Source: an uncultured Erysipelotrichaceae bacterium (GTDB lineage Bacteria; Bacillota_I; Bacilli_A; RF39; UBA660). From it: 10,119 nt of DNA. Below the pieces are notes generated by a model. It searched no databases, was not told the origin of the DNA, and was given only the letters and a program-made list of their open reading frames with translations. Of this stretch, positions 1,149-9,556 are shown one piece after another; position 1 is the first letter of the stretch; every line of letters starts with the position of its first letter. The translations under genes and the position numbers were made by a program. The stretch is from positions 1-10,119 of the forward strand of contig CACXEZ010000060.1 in assembly GCA_902766815.1 (NCBI GenBank), given 5' to 3'.

Positions 1149-1631
1149 ATGTGTAATAATATTAAATTGTTTTTAGTTGATTGCGACGGAGTTTTAACAG
1201 ACGGAGGAATGTATTATTTCGAATCTAAAGATGAAGCAAAAAAATTTAACACCAGGGATGGAATGGCTTTTAAAATGTTAAAGGAAAAGGATATAAAAAT
1301 TGGTATAATAACTGGAGAAAAAAGCAAAATTGTATTAAAACGTGGAAAAAAATTAAAAATGGACTATGTGTTTCTTAATGTAAAGGATAAAGTTTTCGCT
1401 GCTGATAAGATAATTAAAGAATTAAAAATTGATTATAACGACGTTTTATATGTTGGTGATGACATAAATGATTTAGAACTTCTTAAAAAGGTAGGGATCA
1501 GTGCATGTCCAATTGATGCTGAAGAAAAAGTAAAAAAAGTTTGCAAATATATTTCAGTTAAAACAGGTGGCAATGGAGTTATTAGAGATATTTATAATGA
1601 ATTATTCGATAATGAGGGCAAATATGAATGA
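1149..1631 (+). CDS. KdsC-type HAD phosphatase, likely nonulosonate-9-phosphate phosphatase
   Basis: A 160-residue type C0 HAD hydrolase, the usual size for KdsC (KDO-8-phosphate phosphatase) and KDN-9-phosphate phosphatase. Motif I is FLVDCDGVLTDGG with nucleophile D11 and acid/base D13. Motif II is T55 in IITGEKS, the motif III Lys is K81 in NVKDKV, and motif IV is YVGDDIND with D104/D105. A glycine-rich C-terminal TGGNGVIRD segment, typical of KdsC tetramers, is present. Start ATG 1149 has GGAGGG five bases upstream. It would remove the phosphate from a 2-keto-3-deoxy sugar acid made by the NeuB-like enzyme two genes downstream, before CMP activation. E57 and K68 align, by my recollection and with an offset of one, with Glu56 and Lys67 reported to mark KDN-9-phosphate rather than KDO phosphatases. 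No KDO pathway genes are present, so I favour a nine-carbon acid. First gene of the operon; it overlaps the next by eight bases. Confidence 0.85.
   Translation: MCNNIKLFLVDCDGVLTDGGMYYFESKDEAKKFNTRDGMAFKMLKEKDIKIGIITGEKSKIVLKRGKKLKMDYVFLNVKDKVFAADKIIKELKIDYNDVLYVGDDINDLELLKKVGISACPIDAEEKVKKVCKYISVKTGGNGVIRDIYNELFDNEGKYE
1614..1618 (+). promoter_or_regulatory. Ribosome binding site deciding the start of the ParB-like gene
   Basis: GAGGG lies five bases before the ATG at 1624, inside the end of the phosphatase gene. This favours 1624 over an in-frame GTG at 1567 that has no good site and would overlap the phosphatase by 65 bases. Confidence 0.65.
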
Positions 1632-2145
1632 TGAGTTAATAAAGTTATTTGAAATACCAGAAATAAAAGTAACTGTTGATACATTTTGGTTTTTTAAACA
1701 CTGTATGAAGGATAATTATTTTAATGCGCATATAATGGTAAGGCTAATAGCTATAGATTGTTTTTATGGAAAAAATGAGTATGGCTGGGATTGGTATAAT
1801 AAAATGCAAACTAAAAGGGTAAAAGACAATCCATTAATACCAAAACATATGGCTAATCATGAAAAAGAATTTAAAGAATTAATAAAGAGTTTTGAGAAAA
1901 ATGGTTATATTGATAAATATCCCATTGTTGTTAATAAAGATTTACTCTTTATTGATGGTGCACATAGATTAGCATTAGCACTATACTTTGGAATTGATAG
2001 AATACCAATAACAATTGACAAAAATTATTATAATTTTGAAAGCAAAGACTATTCTTTTGATTGGTTTGAGAAGAAAAATATGGGATACATCAAAGAAGAA
2101 GCAATGAAAAAATATGAGCAAATTTGTCGTAAATATGGGGGATAA
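1624..2145 (+). CDS. ParB/sulfiredoxin-fold protein of a sugar cassette, function unknown
   Basis: A 173-residue soluble protein. The recognisable part is at about residues 99-130: YPIVVNKDLLFIDGAHRLAL followed by ALYFGIDRIPITI. This is the ParB/Srx pattern of a beta strand, D-G-x-H-R (D111, G112, H114, R115), a helix, then a G-x-x-x-I-P-V/I strand. There is no helix-turn-helix domain and no chromosome-partition neighbour, so it is not a partition ParB. The N-terminal half is rich in Trp, Phe and Tyr and is not recognised. The ParB/Srx fold includes nucleotide-using enzymes: sulfiredoxin, ParB CTPases and the free-serine kinases SerK and SbnI. A small-molecule kinase or nucleotide-dependent role in making or modifying the sugar is therefore possible, but this is inference. 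The start overlaps the phosphatase by eight bases and the synthase begins two bases after the stop, so translation is probably coupled with both. The family assignment rests on one motif block. Confidence 0.7.
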   Translation: MNDELIKLFEIPEIKVTVDTFWFFKHCMKDNYFNAHIMVRLIAIDCFYGKNEYGWDWYNKMQTKRVKDNPLIPKHMANHEKEFKELIKSFEKNGYIDKYPIVVNKDLLFIDGAHRLALALYFGIDRIPITIDKNYYNFESKDYSFDWFEKKNMGYIKEEAMKKYEQICRKYGG

Positions 2146-2147
2146 GA

Positions 2148-3017
2148 ATGATTGAATACAAAAAACCAACATTTGTTGCCGAATTATGTTGCAATCATAT
2201 GGGAAGCATGGATATAGCTAAAATAATGATTGATTTAGCAGCTGAAGCCGGAGTTGACATTGTTAAATTTCAAAAAAGAAATATCGATGACTGGCATCTT
2301 AGAAAACCAGAAATATATAATAAACAGCATCAAAATAAAGCAAATGCTTTTGGTGAAACATATAAAGAACACAGAATGTTTTTAGAATTTGATTTCTCAC
2401 AGCATAAAGAATTGAAAAAATATTGTGACTCAAAAGGAATTGAATATAGTGCATCAGTTTGGGATTTGCAATCAGCAAAAGAAATTTGTTCATTAAAACC
2501 CAAAATGATTAAAATTGCTTCAGCATGTAATAATAATTTAGAAATGTTAGATTGGATATGTAAAAACTATAAAGGTGAAATACATTTATCAGTTGGAATG
2601 ACATCTAGAGATGAAATAGACAATATAGTCACACTTTTTAGTAAAAATAAAAGAGCATGTGACTTGTACCTATATGCATGTACTTCTGGATATCCCGTAG
2701 ATTATAAGGATATGTGTATTTTAGAAATAACATATTTAAAAGAAAAGTATGGCGAAAAAATAAAAGGAATAGGATTTTCTGGACATCACATTGGAACGAC
2801 TGTTGATATTGCTGCTTACACGTTAGGAGCAGAAGTAATAGAAAGACATTTTACTATAGATAAATCACTGAAAGGTACTGATCAAAAAATGGCATTGACA
2901 AAAGATGAATTTATAAAACTTATTTCTGATATATCTAATGTTAGAGAGGCATTAACATATAAACATAAAAGTATATTAGATATAGAATGCTATAATAAGG
3001 AGAAATTAAAATGGTAA
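2148..3017 (+). CDS. NeuB-type nonulosonate (sialic-acid-like) synthase lacking the SAF domain
   Basis: A 289-residue TIM-barrel enzyme of the NeuB family, which condenses PEP with a six-carbon aldose or aldose phosphate to form a nine-carbon 2-keto-3-deoxy acid. Hallmarks: AELCCNH (11-17), AGVDIVKFQKR, KIASACNNN, HLSVGMTSRDEI, GFSGHH (G212, H213, H214) and ERHFTID (H234). H213 or H214 together with H234 match the metal-binding histidines of NeuB. GTDQK (243-247) stands where relatives have G-x-D-H-K. Bacterial NeuB proteins are usually about 340-350 residues with a C-terminal SAF (antifreeze-like) domain. This one ends right after the barrel, at KEKLKW, an ending I recall in other SAF-less relatives, so it is probably natural and not a truncation. 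The SAF Arg that contacts the N-acetyl group of ManNAc in meningococcal NeuB is therefore absent. The ribosome site GGGGGAT (2137-2142) runs into the preceding stop. It overlaps the CMP-synthetase gene by seven bases. Confidence 0.9.
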   Translation: MIEYKKPTFVAELCCNHMGSMDIAKIMIDLAAEAGVDIVKFQKRNIDDWHLRKPEIYNKQHQNKANAFGETYKEHRMFLEFDFSQHKELKKYCDSKGIEYSASVWDLQSAKEICSLKPKMIKIASACNNNLEMLDWICKNYKGEIHLSVGMTSRDEIDNIVTLFSKNKRACDLYLYACTSGYPVDYKDMCILEITYLKEKYGEKIKGIGFSGHHIGTTVDIAAYTLGAEVIERHFTIDKSLKGTDQKMALTKDEFIKLISDISNVREALTYKHKSILDIECYNKEKLKW

Positions 3018-3697
3018 AATATAACTATGTAGTATTGATCCCGGCTAGAGGCGGAAGTAAATCAATACCATTAAAGAATATTAAATCGATTGCTGGGCAG
3101 CCATTAATTTACTGGTCATTAGATGCAGCCGTAAATAGTGAAAAAATCGATAAAGTATTTGTATCAACTGATAGCAAAGAAATAAAAGAAGTGGTACTAG
3201 CTTACGATAAAATAAATAAAGAAAAAATAGAAGTTATAGATAGAAGTCCAGAATGTTCAGTTGATACAGCATCAACAGAATCAGTAATGTTCGATTTTTC
3301 TAGCAAAATAGATTATAAAAATTTAGTTCTGATTCAATGTACTAATCCGATGATTACAACTAAAGATATAGATGAAGCAATAAAAATACATCCAAACTAT
3401 GACAGTGTGTTATCAACAGTAGTGCAAAAAAGATTTTATTGGCATTTAAATCCTGATGGAAGTATTAATGAAATTGGACATAGTATAAAAAAAAGGCCAA
3501 GGCGACAAGACTGGGATGGAGTGCTAGCTGAAAATGGTTCAATATATATTATATCAAAAGAAAATCTTTATAAAGGCAAATGCAGATTATATGGGAAAAT
3601 AGGCACCTATATTATGGATGATAGTAGTTACTATGAAATAGATGAAGAAACTGATTGGATTATTATTGAAAATCTATTAAAAAGCAGAAAAAAATAA
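3011..3697 (+). CDS. NeuA-type CMP-nonulosonate (acylneuraminate) cytidylyltransferase
   Basis: A 228-residue enzyme of the CMP-NeuAc/CMP-KDO synthetase family, which joins CTP and the free sugar acid to give CMP-sugar and pyrophosphate. The nucleotide-binding signature IPARGGSKSIPLKN is at residues 10-23. It is followed by GQPLIYWSL, VFVSTDSKEI, DTASTES and LIQCTNPM (the family's Q-x-T-x-P element), then a basic KKRPRRQDW segment, ENGSIYI, and a C-terminal YEIDEETDW containing the acidic metal-binding region. Length matches single-domain NeuA. Start ATG 3011 has AAGGAG (2997-3002) eight bases upstream and lies inside the end of the synthase gene, so translation is coupled. KdsB is a related alternative but normally pairs with KdsA and KdsD, which are absent; the NeuB-like partner makes a CMP-nonulosonate more likely. 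By hand count 14 of 28 Ile codons are ATA, well above the flanking genes. Confidence 0.9.
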   Translation: MVKYNYVVLIPARGGSKSIPLKNIKSIAGQPLIYWSLDAAVNSEKIDKVFVSTDSKEIKEVVLAYDKINKEKIEVIDRSPECSVDTASTESVMFDFSSKIDYKNLVLIQCTNPMITTKDIDEAIKIHPNYDSVLSTVVQKRFYWHLNPDGSINEIGHSIKKRPRRQDWDGVLAENGSIYIISKENLYKGKCRLYGKIGTYIMDDSSYYEIDEETDWIIIENLLKSRKK

Positions 3698-3721
3698 GTA
3701 TTATTTTTTTGGGGGTAACAG

Positions 3722-4201
3722 ATGTTAAGTATAGGAATTATATGGAATTGTGCGTACGAATATAGTAATCAAATAATAAAAGACATAAATGATAAGACAT
3801 CAGTAATAGGATCAATATCTATTGACTTAGGTAATAAGTATATAGATTTTGTAAAGGATATTTATGCAAGTGAACAAATGGAAGAATGGAAGATAGAAAA
3901 GAAAATTAATTATATGCTTTTGAATGAGAATAGAAACATTACAATCATATTTTTTGAGTTTGATAACAGTGAAATTGAATATCATCCTTTTAAGAAAAAA
4001 AATGTCTTTTCAAAATTAGAAAATTGTAAAACTTTCATTAGAGAAAAATATAAACCATATGTAGAAAATTATACATTTGATATTATATTTCATGCCACTG
4101 ATAATATAACAGAGCTTAAAAACTGTTTTAATGTAATAATATCTTATATAGATTTAAAAACTACTGAAAAAGTTTTAAAACTAATTAGCAACAAAATATA
4201 A
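3722..4201 (+). CDS. Unrecognised 159-residue cytosolic protein of the sugar operon
   Basis: I do not recognise this protein with confidence. It is soluble, with no signal peptide or membrane helix, and looks like alternating alpha/beta. It opens with a hydrophobic strand (LSIGIIWNCAYEY). A second strand NITIIFFEFDN lies mid-protein. Near the C-terminal half a KCKTF-like stretch (NCKTFIREKYKPY) leads to FDIIFHATDNITELKNC. The last block, H-A-T-D/N-x-x-x-E, reminds me of proteins next to surface-polysaccharide glycosyltransferases that carry a YRE...HKIHATN...ET pattern, but this is a memory-based resemblance only. The start is ATG 3722 behind an unusual TTTTTTTGGGGGT site (GGGGG 3711-3715). 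It sits between the CMP-sugar synthetase (24-base gap) and the radical SAM enzyme (21 bases to its preferred start). Position suggests a role in the same pathway, such as transfer to the acceptor or sugar modification. No catalytic residues can be assigned. Confidence 0.75.
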   Translation: MLSIGIIWNCAYEYSNQIIKDINDKTSVIGSISIDLGNKYIDFVKDIYASEQMEEWKIEKKINYMLLNENRNITIIFFEFDNSEIEYHPFKKKNVFSKLENCKTFIREKYKPYVENYTFDIIFHATDNITELKNCFNVIISYIDLKTTEKVLKLISNKI

Positions 4202-4212
4202 TTAATAAATGT

Positions 4213-4218
4213 GGTGAT
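4213..4218 (+). promoter_or_regulatory. Ribosome binding site deciding the radical SAM start
   Basis: GGTGAT lies four bases before ATG 4223. The in-frame GTG codons at 4211 and 4214 overlap this site and have no site of their own, so 4223 is preferred. Confidence 0.5.
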
Positions 4219-4222
4219 TGAA

Positions 4223-5251
4223 ATGGGTAACTTAATGAATAGAATAAATGAAATTACGAAAGTAGAAAATGGAGACATATGTCCACCATTTCCCCAAAAA
4301 AATTTGCTAATTGAAATAACAAATATTTGTAATAGCAATTGTATTTTTTGTGCAAATAGTAAAATGAAAAGAAAAAGAAAATACATAAAAAAAGAATTAG
4401 TCATAAATGTTTTAAAACAAGCATATCAATTGGGAACAAGAGAAGTTGGCTTTTATACTACTGGAGAACCATTATTAGATAAAAATTTAAATGAATATAT
4501 TGCCATGGCTAAAGACATAGGATATAACTATGTTTATATAACAACTAATGGAATTCTACTAGATAAATCCAAAGCTCAAGAACTGATTAATTCTGAAATA
4601 GATAGTATTAAATTATCAATTAATGGTATTAATAACAAAGATTATAAATTTATTCATGGAACAGATAAGTATGACACAGTTATGAATAATTTAAGGGACC
4701 TATATAATCTCAGAAAAAGAACGAAGTCAAGCTTTAAAATATATGTGTCATATATTTCTACAAGATATACCGATTATGATATAAATATTATAAAAAATAA
4801 TTTTAAAAAGTATTGTGATGAAGTAGTAATAGTAAATGTTAGAAATCAAGCAGGGATGATGCCAGAAATAAATAAAACATTATCTTGTATAAATACTAAC
4901 AACAAAGTACAAGCTGATAGAGTAGTGCCATGCCACTATGTTTTTGACACAATTAATGTAACATGTGAGGGTTTTTTAACAGCTTGTTGTACTGATTTTG
5001 AAAATTATCTAGTTTATGCCGATTTAAATAAGACAACACTAAAAGAAGCATGGCATAATGAAATAATAACTTCCCTAAGAAAGAAACACTTGGAAAATAA
5101 GTTGGGAAATACTCTATGTAATAATTGCATAAATTGTTCTTATAGTATTCCTAGCCCTCTATGCAGAGAATACATAGAAACAGAAATAGGTGAAGAGACT
5201 TTTAATAGCAATAGTGTGGAAAAAAGAATTCAAAAAAAGTTAAAAATGTAA
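4223..5251 (+). CDS. Radical SAM/SPASM enzyme, probable sugar- or glycan-modifying
   Basis: A 342-residue radical SAM enzyme. The canonical C-x3-C-x2-C that binds the [4Fe-4S] cluster reducing S-adenosylmethionine is C36, C40, C43 (ITNICNSNCIFC). A GEP motif (G81-P83, TTGEPLLD) and the YVYITTNGI and SIKLSINGI strands of the barrel follow. The C-terminal part carries eight cysteines: C237, C248, C255, C256, C299, C302, C305 and C314. The arrangement (C-H-Y...C-E-G-x-L-x-x-C-C-x-D, then E-A-W and C-x2-C-x2-C) is that of a SPASM domain, which binds one or two auxiliary Fe-S clusters. SPASM proteins often modify peptides, but relatives also occur in surface-glycan clusters. No precursor peptide is seen nearby and the neighbours are sugar enzymes. 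I therefore infer oxidation, epimerisation or deoxygenation of the sugar acid or its carrier, or modification of a protein acceptor. The reaction cannot be read from sequence. Conditions for use of the clusters would be anaerobic. Confidence 0.88.
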   Translation: MGNLMNRINEITKVENGDICPPFPQKNLLIEITNICNSNCIFCANSKMKRKRKYIKKELVINVLKQAYQLGTREVGFYTTGEPLLDKNLNEYIAMAKDIGYNYVYITTNGILLDKSKAQELINSEIDSIKLSINGINNKDYKFIHGTDKYDTVMNNLRDLYNLRKRTKSSFKIYVSYISTRYTDYDINIIKNNFKKYCDEVVIVNVRNQAGMMPEINKTLSCINTNNKVQADRVVPCHYVFDTINVTCEGFLTACCTDFENYLVYADLNKTTLKEAWHNEIITSLRKKHLENKLGNTLCNNCINCSYSIPSPLCREYIETEIGEETFNSNSVEKRIQKKLKM

Positions 5252-5267
5252 TATAAAGAACAAAGAA

Positions 5268-5273
5268 TGGAGA
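5268..5273 (+). promoter_or_regulatory. Ribosome binding site deciding the Nudix start
   Basis: GGAGAG lies eight bases before ATG 5282. The in-frame ATG at 5267 overlaps it and has only a weak AAAGA upstream. The MELIDVY N terminus from 5282 also matches the usual start of this Nudix group. Confidence 0.55.
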
Positions 5274-5281
5274 GATTACGT

Positions 5282-5827
5282 ATGGAATTAATAGATGTAT
5301 ACAATAACAGACATGAAAGTATGAATTATCAAAAAGAAAGAAAAAAATTAGAAGATGGAGAATATAGATTATCATGTTTTATATGGATAATAAATGATAG
5401 AGAAGAAATACTATTGCAGCAAAGACTAGCAACAGCAAAAAAAATGCCAAACATGTGGGGAACAACAGCTGGTGGAGTAATAAGCGGAGAAACAAGCCTA
5501 AATGGTGCTATAAGAGAACTAAGAGAGGAACTTGGAATAAATGTCAATAAAGAGGAGCTGGAATTTATAGGATCAAATAAGCGAATTAATGATTTTGTAG
5601 AAGTTTGGTTATGTAGAAAAAATATAAATATAAGTGAATTAATTTTAGAACCATCTGAAGTTCAAAATGCTCAATGGTTTAGTATAAAAGAATTTGAAAA
5701 AATGTTAAATGAAGGAACTGGAATAGATTCAGGTTACGAAATTTTCAAAATGTATTATGATAAGTTTTACGATAGGCATTATGAAATAATTGATGGAAAA
5801 CCAGTGGCAATAAAGAATGAAAAATAA
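5282..5827 (+). CDS. Nudix hydrolase (IPP-isomerase/YfcD-like group)
   Basis: A 181-residue Nudix hydrolase. The Nudix box is complete at residues 64-86 (GGVISGETSLNGAIRELREE, then LGI) and matches G-x5-E-x7-R-E-U-x-E-E-x-G-U, so the metal-binding glutamates are intact. The N-terminal MELIDVYN, the strand FIWIINDREEILLQQR and the KMPNMWGTT block before the box place it with the YfcD-like relatives of isopentenyl-diphosphate isomerase. The family cleaves nucleoside diphosphates linked to another group X; the substrate here is unknown. In this operon it might remove a toxic or misformed activated sugar, control CMP-sugar levels, or simply do housekeeping. The next gene starts 11 bases before this stop, so the two are translationally coupled, which argues for a pathway role. 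Start 5282 is chosen for its GGAGAG site. Confidence 0.88.
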   Translation: MELIDVYNNRHESMNYQKERKKLEDGEYRLSCFIWIINDREEILLQQRLATAKKMPNMWGTTAGGVISGETSLNGAIRELREELGINVNKEELEFIGSNKRINDFVEVWLCRKNINISELILEPSEVQNAQWFSIKEFEKMLNEGTGIDSGYEIFKMYYDKFYDRHYEIIDGKPVAIKNEK

Positions 5828-7259
5828 TCTATTAAATGAATTTTTTACATATGAAACCAAAAATAATCTTTTTGACATTGAATTTGAATCATTTAAAATA
5901 TGGGAAATATTAAGAACCTATGTTTTTATTGAAATAGAACAAATTTATAATAATTTACAACCATTGTTTCCACAAAAAAATTCTTCTAAAAAAAAACATA
6001 TATCATTCAATGTAATAAATAGCATTAGATTATTTTTGATTAAAAATAGAGATTATGTTTTTCTGAATAATCCAAGAAGGGTAAAGCAAAAAAATGGTGA
6101 ATATTATTGTATATATACTGATTTGCTAATTGATTTATTAAAGAAAAATCATACATGTACAACATTTGAAGATCCATATTGGGCATTGTCAAAATCAAGT
6201 AATATATCACATTTTGAACCAATAAAAACTGAAGACATATGTTATTTAGATTTTGTAGAGTTCATTTTCAAAATAAAAAAAATATTCTATAAAACGTTTA
6301 ATAGAAATTACAAAAAATTACATGCAATATTAAATAAATTAGAACAAGATATTGAAAAGGAATTTAAATGTAATCTAACTGATATATTTAAAGTTGGTGA
6401 AGACAAAATTTTATACTTAGTTTTGACTAAAAAAATATATGTTAAATTAATAAAAAGAATAAAACCAAAAGCTATATTAGAATTTTACGATGCCTTTCCA
6501 TCGAAAGTTGTAATAAATAAAATAGCTAAAGAACAAAACATTCCAATTATAGAAATTCAGCACGGCATAGTAACAAAAGAGAATCCTATATTTTTAAAGT
6601 ATAGTGATTTATCAAGACAATATGATTGCGTGCCAGATTATGTTTTGTCTTATGGAGAAAAATTGTTAAATACCGAACATATGCCAATTAAAAAGAATAA
6701 CATTTACTACGTAGGAAATTTATTTTTAAAAAGTAAAATAAATGAATATAAAAACAATATTGCGAAAAAAAAGAATATATTATTCATTTCACAATCAAAT
6801 TTAGGTAAATATATAAGTGAAAGTGCGAGTAAATTGGCTGATTTGTTAAAAAAAGATAACGAATATAAAATAATATACAAAATGCATCCGTACGAAATCG
6901 GAAACAATTATGAATGTTTGAAAAAATCAAACATCGAAATAATAAACAATAGAGAAAAAGATATATATTATTATCAATCAATTTCAATTGCTCAAGTAGG
7001 AATTTATAGTACTGGTATATATGAAGGAATAGCATTTGGATTAAAAACATTTATATTGGATAATAAATATGGAACAAAAGAAATAAAAGGTATATTAAAA
7101 GAAGATAATCAAATTACTTATGTAACAGACATAAAAGAAATTGCCGAAAATATTAAAAATATTAAAGAAAACCAAAAGAATATTGATAATAAATATTGGG
7201 AAAAAGTTGATGAAAACAAAATAATTGATATAATAGACAAAATAACAAATAATTGCTGA
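5817..7259 (+). CDS. Probable GT-B glycosyltransferase, candidate nonulosonyl (sialyl/KDN/KDO-type) transferase
   Basis: A 480-residue cytosolic protein without signal peptide or membrane helix. The N-terminal FDIEFESFKIWEILRTY resembles the start of surface-polysaccharide transferases of the KpsC/sialyltransferase-like kind. The C-terminal half has a GT-B look: ILEFYDAFPSK (E222-D225), a strand and turn with IPIIEIQHGI (Q248, H249, G250), KMHPYE (H357, P358), and YSTGIYEGIAFG (Y397, S398, T399, E403), then a closing helix. HP and Ser-Ser/Thr motifs are shared by bacterial sialyltransferase families that use CMP-sugars and bind the cytidine part. The third motif of those families (D/E-D/E-G) is not obvious. 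With the CMP-nonulosonate genes directly upstream, the natural inference is that it transfers that sugar to a glycan, lipid or protein acceptor. Start ATG 5817 lies inside the Nudix gene with only a weak AAAGA before it, so coupling may drive initiation. It ends in TGA, with an in-frame TAA four codons later. Very AT-rich, with many ATA codons. Confidence 0.7.
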   Translation: MKNNLLNEFFTYETKNNLFDIEFESFKIWEILRTYVFIEIEQIYNNLQPLFPQKNSSKKKHISFNVINSIRLFLIKNRDYVFLNNPRRVKQKNGEYYCIYTDLLIDLLKKNHTCTTFEDPYWALSKSSNISHFEPIKTEDICYLDFVEFIFKIKKIFYKTFNRNYKKLHAILNKLEQDIEKEFKCNLTDIFKVGEDKILYLVLTKKIYVKLIKRIKPKAILEFYDAFPSKVVINKIAKEQNIPIIEIQHGIVTKENPIFLKYSDLSRQYDCVPDYVLSYGEKLLNTEHMPIKKNNIYYVGNLFLKSKINEYKNNIAKKKNILFISQSNLGKYISESASKLADLLKKDNEYKIIYKMHPYEIGNNYECLKKSNIEIINNREKDIYYYQSISIAQVGIYSTGIYEGIAFGLKTFILDNKYGTKEIKGILKEDNQITYVTDIKEIAENIKNIKENQKNIDNKYWEKVDENKIIDIIDKITNNC

Positions 7260-7296
7260 TATATCATTTAAAAGAACATTTATTGGGGGTAAATTC

Positions 7297-9471
7297 ATGG
7301 ACAAAATAATTGTAGAAAAAAACAAACTAAAAGATACTTTAGAAATAATTAAAGATATTCTTTTATATGAAAAAGATGATCTAGATGATTTATATAACAA
7401 TTTCCATGGTAAAAGAGAAGACTTGTGGCGAATTGTAGAAAGAAAAAAAATTCATATTAATAATTTAAAAGCATCACTAGAAAAACCATATTTTGCTAGA
7501 GTCGATTTCATTAATGAATCTGACGATCAAAAACATACAATATACATAGGAAAAAATGGAATAAGTAAAAGCGCAAATATTGTTGTTACTGACTGGAGAG
7601 CTCCGATAAGTTCACTATATTATGATGCTGAAATTGGTAAATGTAGTTTTGATGCTCCAGAAGGTACAATTAGTGGAGAAATGACATTGAAACGTCAATA
7701 TGAAATTGAACATGGAGAATTATTAAAATACTTTGATGTTGATTTAGTTTCCAATGATGCTTTACTCCAAAAATATTTAAATGATAATAATGACAATAGA
7801 TTAAAAAGCATTGTTTCTACAATTCAAAAAGAACAAAATGAAGTAATCAGAAAAAATTTTTTTGATAATTTAATAGTACAAGGTGTAGCAGGTTCAGGAA
7901 AGACAACAGTAGCACTTCATAGAATTGCATATTTAGTATACAATTACATGAATCAAATAAACCAAAATCAATATTTAGTAATTGGACCTAACCCAGTATT
8001 TATAAAATATATTAAATCAGTTTTACCTGAACTAGATGTGTCAGGAGTAACTCAATCAACTTTTGAATTGTTTGCTAAGGAATATGTTGGTGGATTAATT
8101 AATATTAATTCTTCAGATAAAAAAGTAAATGATAGTATATCTGGGAAAAATCATAACGATATTGATAAATTTAAATCATCATTAAGATATAAGGATATGA
8201 TTGATAAATTTATTGAGATATATTTTAATGCTATAACATACAATGATTTAAAAGTAGGAAATTTTACAGTATTAGATAAAAACATCATTATGAATACATT
8301 CAATGAAATAAATAGAATGTCTAATACAAGCCTAGAGAATAAAATAGAATTAACTATTGAAAGGTTATGTAAACACATTGATGAATATAATAGTTCCATT
8401 ATATCTAAATATGATGATTACACCTATGAAATATTTAAAAATACTGAAGACATTAAAGAAAGAAACAAATTAAGAACAACTATTGCCAAAGAACGCGAAG
8501 AAATAAAAAAGAATTGTAAAGCGACTCTTAGAAAATATTTTTCTAAAGCTAAAGTAAGTCCTACTAAATTATATAAATTATTCATTTCATCAATTGAAGA
8601 TTTTAATTTATATAATTATAATAATTTAAAACTACTAAAAAAAGAAACCCTAACAAATATAAGGAAAGATAATTATGATTTTGAAGATTTATCTGCCCTA
8701 ATGTATATTAAATGCTCTATTTCTCCGGATAGAAAATACTCTATGCTTAGACATGTAGTTATTGATGAAGCACAAGATTTAGGTGAATTTAATTTCTATA
8801 CATTAAAGAATATATTACCGAATGCTACATTTAGTATCTTTGGAGACTTAGCTCAATCAATATATGATTATCGTGGAATCGATAACTGGGAACAAGTAAA
8901 CAGCATAATGTTTAATAATGATGGAGAGATAGTTAAATTCAAAAAAAGTTATCGAACTACCGCTGAAATTATGAATGCTGCAGATGCTGTCGCTGAAAGC
9001 ATTGATATGGAAAAATCAGATTTAGTAGTAAGACATGGTTCTCCAGTTAAATATACCGATATAGGAATAAAAGAGTTGATTCCTAACTACATAATTAGAA
9101 AAGTAGAAGAATACAAACAAAAAGGCTATAAAACTATTGCTATAATCAGCAAATCTGATTCTATGTCACAAGATATTAATGAAGAGCTTAAAGAAAATGG
9201 CCTAAACATACCCAACATTTCCATTAATGATGATTTGACTGAAGATAAGTATAGAATATGTACAATATCAAATCAATTAGCCAAAGGATTAGAATTTGAT
9301 GCTGTAATTATTAATGATGCAAGCGAAAAAAATTATTCATCAAATAATAGACTAGATATGAAATTATTATATGTTGCTATTACAAGAGCATTACATGAAA
9401 TAGATATTATGTATGCTGGAGAATTAACCAAACCGTTACAACAAAACATATCTAGAGTACTAAAAAAATAA
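7297..9471 (+). CDS. helD: HelD-like RNA polymerase-recycling motor (UvrD-family helicase fold)
   Basis: A 724-residue superfamily 1 ATPase. The N terminus has a long charged helical hairpin and the HelD-specific KPYFARVDF and VTDWRAPISSLYYD blocks, followed by MTLKRQYEI and STIQKEQNEVIR. Walker A is GVAGSGKTT at 196-204 (K202), Walker B is DEAQD at 490-494. Then come GDLAQSIYDYRG (motif III), KKSYRTTAEI (motif IV), LAKGLEFDAVII (motif V) and YVAITRA at 692-698 (motif VI, with the arginine finger). B. subtilis HelD is about 774 residues, so length fits. HelD enters RNA polymerase channels and uses ATP to free stalled or post-termination complexes; some actinobacterial HelD proteins protect against rifampicin. 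The insert between motifs is AT-rich and poorly conserved, as expected. The start has a GGGGG site at 7285-7289. It lies 37 bases after the glycosyltransferase and could share its transcript, but ATA codon use (about 9 of the first 26 Ile) is intermediate, and its role is unrelated to the sugar genes. Confidence 0.92.
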   Translation: MDKIIVEKNKLKDTLEIIKDILLYEKDDLDDLYNNFHGKREDLWRIVERKKIHINNLKASLEKPYFARVDFINESDDQKHTIYIGKNGISKSANIVVTDWRAPISSLYYDAEIGKCSFDAPEGTISGEMTLKRQYEIEHGELLKYFDVDLVSNDALLQKYLNDNNDNRLKSIVSTIQKEQNEVIRKNFFDNLIVQGVAGSGKTTVALHRIAYLVYNYMNQINQNQYLVIGPNPVFIKYIKSVLPELDVSGVTQSTFELFAKEYVGGLININSSDKKVNDSISGKNHNDIDKFKSSLRYKDMIDKFIEIYFNAITYNDLKVGNFTVLDKNIIMNTFNEINRMSNTSLENKIELTIERLCKHIDEYNSSIISKYDDYTYEIFKNTEDIKERNKLRTTIAKEREEIKKNCKATLRKYFSKAKVSPTKLYKLFISSIEDFNLYNYNNLKLLKKETLTNIRKDNYDFEDLSALMYIKCSISPDRKYSMLRHVVIDEAQDLGEFNFYTLKNILPNATFSIFGDLAQSIYDYRGIDNWEQVNSIMFNNDGEIVKFKKSYRTTAEIMNAADAVAESIDMEKSDLVVRHGSPVKYTDIGIKELIPNYIIRKVEEYKQKGYKTIAIISKSDSMSQDINEELKENGLNIPNISINDDLTEDKYRICTISNQLAKGLEFDAVIINDASEKNYSSNNRLDMKLLYVAITRALHEIDIMYAGELTKPLQQNISRVLKK

Positions 9472-9524
9472 GAATAATTAATTTTATTCTTTTCAAACTA
9501 TTGATAAACTAAGTCATTAGTCTG

Positions 9525-9556
9525 AAGGCAATTAAAGTAAATTGCCTTTTTATCTT
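9525..9556 (+). terminator. Rho-independent terminator after helD
   Basis: A perfect 9-base stem, AAGGCAATT at 9525-9533 and AATTGCCTT at 9540-9548, with a six-base loop, is followed by TTTTATCTTTT. A weaker AT-only-like hairpin (AAGAATAA 9470-9477 with TTATTCTT 9484-9491) sits directly at the helD stop and may add to termination. No A-run precedes the main stem, so it points rightward only. Confidence 0.75.

Follow-up and report, generated by a model that had tools for sequence, protein, structure and literature searches.

We found, in the 10,119-nucleotide contig CACXEZ010000060.1 of an uncultured Erysipelotrichaceae bacterium (the window, by which we mean this whole stretch), a compact set of nine genes that could make, activate and transfer a nonulosonic acid of the KDN (2-keto-3-deoxynononic acid) type, a function to which we give, from the encoded proteins, about an even chance. 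The core of this set consists of a HAD phosphatase, a NeuB-family synthase and a CMP-ulosonic acid synthetase (NeuA; CMP, cytidine monophosphate), which most likely form a KDN-type acid by a phosphorylated route and link it to CMP. This core is well supported, yet of a known kind. What is new is the set of helper genes around it, which includes the RNA polymerase recycling motor HelD. The GC content of the window is 26%, and its host is probably a gut bacterium.

The initial annotation described eight tightly packed open reading frames at 1149..7259, and all eight were found on the + strand, where all listed genes of the window lie, spaced by -8, +2, -7, +24, +9, +15 and -11 bases in gene order. 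They encode a phosphatase of the KDN-9-phosphate phosphatase type (KdsC family; 1149..1631), a ParB/sulfiredoxin-fold protein predicted to be a possible kinase or NTPase (1624..2145), the 289-aa synthase (2148..3017), NeuA (3011..3697), a 159-aa protein of nucleoside diphosphate kinase (NDK) fold (3722..4201), a BtrN-like radical SAM/SPASM protein (4211, or 4223, to 5251), a Nudix hydrolase (5267..5827) and a putative GT-B-type transferase of 480 aa (5817..7259). For the ParB-like gene the ATG at 1624 was chosen; a longer GTG form from 1567 is also listed. Pfam matches over cut-off comprise NeuB (PF03102, 226.5 bits, cut-off 22.1), CTP_transf_3 (PF02348, cytidylyltransferase family, 100.6 bits), Hydrolase_3 (50.3 bits), Radical_SAM (PF04055, 83 bits), SPASM (PF13186, 30.3 bits) and NUDIX (PF00293, 62.9 bits); the same scan gave nothing over cut-off for the ParB-like, NDK-like and 480-aa proteins. 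The three core genes lie together with small gaps or overlaps, as had been annotated, but they are not contiguous, because the ParB-like gene separates the phosphatase gene from neuB.

Contrary to the annotated boundary, the cassette probably does not end at 7259. The HelD gene (7297..9471, +) starts 37 bases past the GT-B-like gene, and no terminator-like site was reported between 880 and 9471; the first one, a hairpin with a 10-pair stem and a T-rich tail (9524..9549, +), stands right behind HelD and is a possible end of the unit. A 161-base gap (988-1148) precedes the phosphatase gene, and the largest gap inside the cassette is 24 bases. Positions 1149-9471 are thus best read, from this layout, as probably a single transcription unit of nine genes, with HelD as the probable ninth. 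It tells against this that the region holds two terminator-like sites vs 1.0 (standard deviation 1.0) expected by chance, so that the hairpin is suggestive only by its place. Promoter-like sites were not enriched either (66 vs 74.4 in shuffled sequences), and we therefore propose no promoter.

Related loci were collected with a profile of the ParB-like protein as bait (alignment A2, 23 of 29 rows). The first search yielded the loci L001-L005, all of which were kept; the second, over 385 genomes of the order of genome G001, yielded seven matches, namely L001 again, G246 (L030), G370 (L031 and L093), G192 (L032) and G072 (L033), which were kept, and G384 and G271 (L034 and L035), which were left out for a ParB domain in an unrelated context. 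The window, L001-L005 and the four later loci make ten, with the two contigs of G370 presumably belonging to one cassette. Since all eight genes recur in identical order in L001, where the first two are fused, and in L002, with identities of 50-86%, as a neighbourhood check was meant to find, the arrangement is not a product of chance.

The phosphorylated, KDN-like route proposed in the initial annotation is borne out by the phosphatase. This protein scores 172.7 bits (E 5.8e-51) against the KDN-9-phosphatase model NF058599, just under the cut-off of 180, and 131.7 bits, over cut-off, against the KdsC family model TIGR01670. Its best solved relative is entry 3e81 of the Protein Data Bank (PDB; E 3.6e-38), and the next different protein is 3mn1 (E 1.7e-29). 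We take 3e81 to be the KDN-9-phosphate phosphatase of Bacteroides thetaiotaomicron, although the PDB entry itself says acylneuraminate cytidylyltransferase. The residues E56 and K67, which differ between PDB entries 4hgq and 4hgr and to which we ascribe, on our own assumption, a role in KDN-9-phosphate phosphatase, are kept in the window's phosphatase and in all five other aligned cassette phosphatases (L001, L002, L005, L030 and L033). At these positions, 3mn1 carries R and S, and both 4um5 and the non-cassette phosphatase of L015 carry R and E. Membership in the KdsC family could also fit the synthesis of a Kdo-type (3-deoxy-octulosonic) C8 acid from arabinose-5-phosphate. We consider this very improbable: the KdsC-type proteins 3mn1 and 4um5 differ from the window's E and K, the synthase belongs to the NeuB family, and NeuA falls far below the cut-offs of the KdsB models.

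All three core enzyme types are shared with the KDN pathway of B. thetaiotaomicron (BT1714 synthase, KDN-9-phosphate phosphatase and CMP-KDN synthetase), whose phosphatase is, among solved structures, nearest to the window's and has the E56/K67 pair in common with it. The accessible text of PMC6200933 speaks of neither helper genes nor HelD for that pathway. The best PDB relative of the window's NeuA is 9t4z, 'PpNeuA' (E 3e-40), which is assumed here without proof to be the P. parvum CMP-Kdn synthetase of PMC6200933; the P. parvum system differs in that its enzymes are eukaryotic and form no cassette.

The synthase is a NeuB family barrel without the C-terminal SAF domain, which is absent from all seven short NeuBs aligned, the window's included. 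In SAF-type NeuB this domain contacts the N-acetyl group. The best 120 of 6522 database relatives, 272-296 aa in length and matching PF03102 only, share the short form, so that the SAF-less NeuB is a large known kind and not a trait of the cassette. The window's NeuB stays below the models for NeuB_NnaB (TIGR03569, 188.7 bits vs a cut-off of 399.65) and for the pseudaminic acid synthase PseI (TIGR03586, 149.2 vs 340.25 bits). These scores, the missing SAF domain, the KDN-9-phosphate type of the phosphatase and the lack of a clear PF02350 epimerase across the seven cassette genomes searched all argue against the usual bacterial route, in which N-acetylneuraminic (Neu5Ac), legionaminic or pseudaminic acid would be made from a free N-acetylated sugar supplied by precursor genes elsewhere. 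Such a route would be in keeping with the NeuB family being shared and with locus L031, where the helpers accompany a full-length NeuB that exceeds the NeuB_NnaB cut-off (404.2 vs 399.65 bits), but we regard it as improbable for the window.

Mannose-6-phosphate is presumably the sugar substrate of this NeuB. The P. parvum synthase used mannose-6-phosphate and none of six other sugars, according to the accessible text of PMC6200933. Upstream of the L005 cassette lies a gene for a mannose-6-phosphate isomerase (TIGR00218, 177.4 bits, cut-off 116.2). The competing substrate is N-acetylmannosamine-6-phosphate (ManNAc-6-phosphate), which would give Neu5Ac-9-phosphate by a mammalian-type phosphorylated route; one such 9-phosphatase family would, we assume, suit either route, and an AGE-family epimerase gene is found at the related plasmid locus L104. 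The isomerase adjoining the L005 cassette, the KDN-9-phosphate enzyme as best solved relative of the phosphatase, and the seven short NeuBs without the domain that contacts the N-acetyl group all speak for KDN instead, and we judge the ManNAc-6-phosphate route unlikely, if slightly less so than the usual route from a free sugar.

Whether precursor genes lie elsewhere in the genomes was answered in part. The claim of the initial annotation holds insofar as the genomes behind L001-L005, L030 and L031 showed no clear UDP-GlcNAc 2-epimerase (PF02350), in a search that did not extend to epimerases of the NanE and AGE types or to acetyltransferases. Across ten genomes, PF02350 matched strongly in G072 (423 bits) and G455 (411 bits) only, and weakly, above the cut-off of 30.6, in G001 (40.6 bits) and G004 (38.2 bits), where the matching reading frames begin, judged by their motifs, like MurG and like a diacylglycerol glucosyltransferase, respectively. 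Scores in G002, G003, G005, G246, G370 and G192 were below cut-off. Because the genomes are metagenome assemblies, the absence of an epimerase is weak evidence.

Relatives on plasmids place the core in a wider context. A tblastn search with the window's NeuB matched 101 of 72,556 plasmid records, counting any NeuB type and all at less than 60% identity; the ten rows listed show 44-51% identity over 97-100% of the query, and pSymB of Sinorhizobium meliloti (L102), at 50.5%, is one of them. Three of the four annotated alphaproteobacterial plasmids that we opened (L102, L103 and L104) carry neuB near genes for a NeuA-phosphatase fusion, a DUF6716 protein and an 'alpha-2,3-sialyltransferase'. The pSymB locus has the same phosphatase type as the window, fused to NeuA as in L005, but differs from it in its other transferases and in that ParB-like, NDK-like, radical SAM, Nudix, GT-B-like and HelD proteins had no match within 16.9 kb. 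In Sinorhizobium fredii, two records (strains) carry this NeuB at 48.8% identity, one of them (L107) together with NeuA-phosphatase and DUF6716 genes. The accessible text of PMC7845648 names S. fredii, as a species, as a maker of a Kdn polysaccharide.

Several observations weigh against a KDN product made by the phosphorylated route. The phosphatase misses the NF058599 cut-off by 7 bits, and no KdsC-type phosphatase over cut-off was found in G003 and G004 when G001-G005 were searched as genomes, and the phosphorylated route may therefore not hold throughout. A type I mannose-6-phosphate isomerase was detected in one of the ten genomes searched, that of L005. ManNAc-6-phosphate retains some weight as substrate because the epimerase search covered PF02350 and not NanE or AGE, and two related plasmid loci point away from KDN at their own sites: L104 by the AGE-family epimerase, and L105 by pseB and pseC genes nearby (NeuA is unlisted in its incomplete gene table). 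Finally, at the position of NeuB Glu134, where four SAF-type sequences have Glu or Asp, the seven short NeuBs show Cys (5) or Ser (2). A motif search located this position in 100 of the 120 best relatives (97 Cys, 1 Ala, 1 Ser and 1 Thr), and the 20 relatives off the motif have Cys (10), Met (8) or Ile (1), with one not visible. As no acid occupies this position, the SAF-less NeuB may differ in chemistry or in substrate.

Across the ten loci, the helpers largely persist while the acid-forming enzyme changes. Apart from the ParB-like bait (10/10), the most constant components are the CMP-synthetase (9/10), the NDK-like protein (nine loci, eight by BLAST and L005 by eye, with the L033 contig ending at that point) and the Nudix protein (nine loci, eight by BLAST and L032 by eye, none being seen in L005), followed by the GT-B-like protein at eight loci and HelD at seven. 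A KdsC-type phosphatase is present at six loci, with a Cof-type enzyme instead in L032, and the window-type radical SAM protein also at six, the L030 contig stopping 89 bases past its last gene and L005 having a different kind. SAF-less NeuB occurs at seven loci (the window, L001-L005 and L030). Besides the full-length NeuB of L031, the remaining acid-forming enzymes are a NanA-like enzyme in L033 (139.4 bits, below its cut-off of 281) and an HMGL-like aldolase, accompanied by a KdsB-like CMP-synthetase, in L032. The helpers had been annotated as additions to the KDN route, a view that their recurrence with full-length NeuB, a NanA-like enzyme and an HMGL-like aldolase does not sustain. They rather appear to serve ulosonate use in general than to extend KDN synthesis; and since they accompany other acid-forming enzymes, their role need not concern KDN at all, which lessens what they can say for a KDN product.

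The helpers are rare. The ParB-like profile matched in 7 of 385 genomes, the NDK-like profile in 2 of 391 genomes of the class of G004 (G004 and G455) and in 3 of 395 of the class of G001 (G001, G819 and G1065), and the GT-B-like profile in 4 of 327 genomes, strongly in G001 and G246 and weakly in G315 (E 1.3e-4) and G264 (6e-4). The NDK-like match in G1065 (L068, E 1.7e-4) was discarded as chance.

Several cassette genes are fused, as in phosphatase-ParB (L001), radical SAM-Nudix (L003), NeuA-phosphatase (L005), ParB-NanA-like and phosphatase-GmhA-like (L033), and HAD-HMGL-like aldolase (L032). In L033 (5842-8231), the fusion of ParB to a NanA/DapA-like aldolase lies beside that of the phosphatase to a GmhA-like isomerase; a longer ulosonic acid made from a heptose would be a speculative reading. 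In L032 (8212-11732), the HAD-HMGL-like, ParB-NDK-like and KdsB-like synthetase genes are consecutive and look like a CMP-ulosonate pathway that works through a pyruvate aldolase. Also encoded in the L005 cassette are a protein of 605 aa that matches pyruvate-kinase barrels (4361-6178) and an AroB-like cyclase (10309-11469).

Two helpers may work as a pair. The label 'ParB-like' given in the initial annotation is right for the fold of the first, a ParB/sulfiredoxin fold that it has in common with the free serine kinases SerK and SbnI; the similarity is weak, with 15 bits against the NCBIfam model of SerK, whose cut-off is 380. The second, the 159-aa protein formerly recorded as unknown, has the NDK fold with the catalytic His aligned. 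Its His124 is invariant in 28 of 28 NDK-like members and pairs with the NDK His, which sits in an HGSD-like motif, when the profiles are aligned locally over 30 columns (P 0.0047, with an hhalign probability of only 7.5%); one Arg is aligned as well. The protein differs from NDK in that it does not match Pfam NDK (PF00334) over cut-off, one of the 28 members, not the window's, matching at all (E 0.068), and in its fused or adjacent ParB-fold partner. A further difference would speak against NDK-like function: the lysine loop seems changed, and Lys12, which we take to be the phosphate-binding residue of NDK, appears to be replaced. By eye, IIWN or LWPP stands in the first strand in place of the IKP of NDK, a stretch that the profile alignment did not reach.

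The ParB-fold and NDK-fold proteins probably act together, since L032 and, by eye, L005 encode them as a single protein. With ParB as bait, the pair meets the CMP-synthetase more often than the KdsC-type phosphatase, and for this reason we prefer a job in CMP-sugar turnover over one in making the hexose-6-phosphate. The idea that the NDK-like protein stands in for standard NDK, which is over cut-off in none of the ten cassette genomes, fell to a control: standard NDK is rare anyway, with 19 of 288 genomes of the order of G001 and 18 of 148 of the class of G004 over cut-off. NDK-like domains also occur without core enzymes at two loci outside the ten, L065 and L067. In L065 (G455; 9241-12683), an NDK-like gene without neuB stands among genes that resemble, by eye, those for choline kinase, mannose-1-phosphate guanylyltransferase and glycerol-1-phosphate dehydrogenase, which extends the family beyond ulosonic acids. 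In L067 (G819; 9204-10841), the domain forms the C-terminus of a protein of 545 aa, encoded, judging by eye, in a polysaccharide cluster that also has a sulfotransferase-like gene. Scans of viral contigs for NDK-like proteins and NeuB returned no relative, and one viral ParB-like match (L006) was, by eye, an ordinary phage ParB-type protein.

The radical SAM protein has the CxxxCxxC motif, and its closest solved relative is BtrN (4m7s, E 3.8e-15), with the best stretch spanning residues 25-124 only; cytosylglucuronate decarboxylase is also among its solved relatives. Both of these are enzymes of antibiotic pathways, and BtrN, which we take to be the radical SAM dehydrogenase of butirosin synthesis, belongs to a different pathway from the window's protein. 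With BtrN as its nearest solved relative, the radical SAM protein would most naturally be guessed to oxidise a sugar hydroxyl, and by analogy the product could be a modified or new sugar acid. The PDB relatives of the Nudix protein include MutT, YfcD and IPP (isopentenyl diphosphate) isomerase, with E values from 9.5e-7. The 480-aa protein gave nothing above noise in Pfam and PDB profile searches and was assigned to GT-B by eye. It has 34 invariant columns across seven relatives, with conserved QHG, HP.E and ST..E motifs, from which one might guess a transfer activity. A comparison with DUF6716 (P 0.028, probability 1.8%, 29 columns) did not make the GT-B family assignment firm.

HelD of the window passes the class I model NF041464 (426 bits vs 419) and contains DWRAP and GSGKT. 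A HelD gene lies in or next to the cassette at seven of the ten loci (the window, L001, L002, L004, L030, L033 and L093 of G370), always on the same strand as the adjoining cassette genes and in varying positions: behind the GT-B gene, on either side of the Nudix gene, or between those for phosphatase and ParB. In L093 the order is GT-B-like, Nudix, HelD, and in L030 the HelD frame overlaps both the phosphatase frame (8934 vs 8941) and the ParB frame (11050 vs 11069). Such a recurrence argues against HelD being a mere neighbour by history, unrelated to the sugar acid, as does the finding that at least two well-supported HelD lineages occur at cassettes. For a mere neighbour it speaks that HelD is a general factor, that it is not beside the cassette in L003, L005 and L032 and lies 498 bases away in L004, and that the cassette copy is the sole full-length match in G002, G004, G246 and G072. 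We give this explanation somewhat less than an even chance. Full-length HelD was counted in nine genomes, with none in G005 and one or two copies in each of the others.

In a tree of seven cassette and five other HelD rows, the window groups with L001, L033 and G370 (100/100) and L002 with L030 (95/94), and L004 stands apart; the G370 protein (L045) was relabelled as a cassette row after the first tree had been seen, following the reading of its contig. L033 has the window's HelD type despite an entirely different acid-forming enzyme. A single cassette-specific HelD clade was neither shown nor rejected (4% of bootstrap trees; approximately unbiased test, p-AU 0.391).

HelD could also protect its own producer, if the unit made a secreted antimicrobial, derived from a nucleotide or sugar acid, that acts against RNA polymerase. 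The relatedness of the radical SAM protein to BtrN and cytosylglucuronate decarboxylase, both from antibiotic pathways, would suit such a product. HelD or HelR can shield RNA polymerase from rifampicin, as stated in the accessible texts of PMC10719064 and PMC12802891, but loss of class I HelD left the minimal inhibitory concentration of rifampicin unchanged in B. subtilis, according to a study cited in that of PMC10719064. Moreover, the nine genes include no exporter or known self-resistance gene, and a surface glycan is the better fit because the unit includes a transferase. An antimicrobial thus seems improbable to us. The main text of PMC8655204, which treats the HelD classes, makes no mention of operon, gene cluster, genomic context, sialic or polysaccharide.

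Taken as the source of a KDN-type acid, the unit could work as follows. NeuB would join a hexose-6-phosphate, most likely mannose-6-phosphate, to phosphoenolpyruvate, as its family suggests, yielding a nonulosonate-9-phosphate, from which the HAD phosphatase would take off the phosphate before NeuA couples the acid to CMP. The BtrN-like protein might then oxidise or otherwise alter a hydroxyl of the acid or of its CMP form under oxygen-free conditions, and the GT-B-like protein might pass the acid to an acceptor that is secreted or sits on the cell surface. ParB-fold and NDK-fold protein would be a pair in phosphoryl transfer tied to CMP-sugar use, our preferred guess being that they bring released CMP back towards CTP. 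HelD would be co-inherited, and perhaps keeps RNA polymerase clear on the unit.

A bolder proposal would be that the ParB-fold, NDK-fold, Nudix and GT-B-like proteins with HelD, and often the BtrN-like protein, form a portable helper module, coupled to at least four ulosonate-forming chemistries, which makes CMP-ulosonate-derived compounds that touch RNA polymerase. If so, HelD would travel with the module because these compounds touch RNA polymerase, and the module would stand for a sugar-acid nucleotide pathway of a new class, one that brings along its own self-protection or regulation; we hold this to be a long shot. With the core itself, Bacilli and Clostridia known through metagenome assemblies join the organisms likely to produce KDN-type acids, a point of possible weight wherever sialic acids serve as signals and food. 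The helpers weigh more, as they comprise a conserved NDK-fold family that is unannotated, its ParB-fold fusion partner and a HelD within a sugar operon, and they raise testable questions on the links among CMP-sugar use, phosphoryl transfer and transcription. In the open literature we found no paper that combines KDN, nonulosonic acids and radical SAM, none that joins nucleoside diphosphate kinase, ParB and CMP-sialic acid, and none that joins free serine kinase, ParB and polysaccharide; radical SAM, SPASM and sialic acid meet in one paper, which, as far as its title and abstract go, deals with a sactipeptide.

The edges of the window hold, on the + strand, the 3' part of a gene that we take to be XTP/dITP-pyrophosphatase-like (first) and the 5' part of one that we take to be methionyl-tRNA-synthetase-like (last). 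In L001 (6507-8444), a serine-recombinase-like gene (by eye) stands 1 kb upstream of the cassette and may indicate mobility. Upstream of the window's cassette lies a GrpB-family gene (PF04229; 454-987, +), and a GrpB-like gene is, by eye, also found near the cassette in G370 (L093, 11316-11843).

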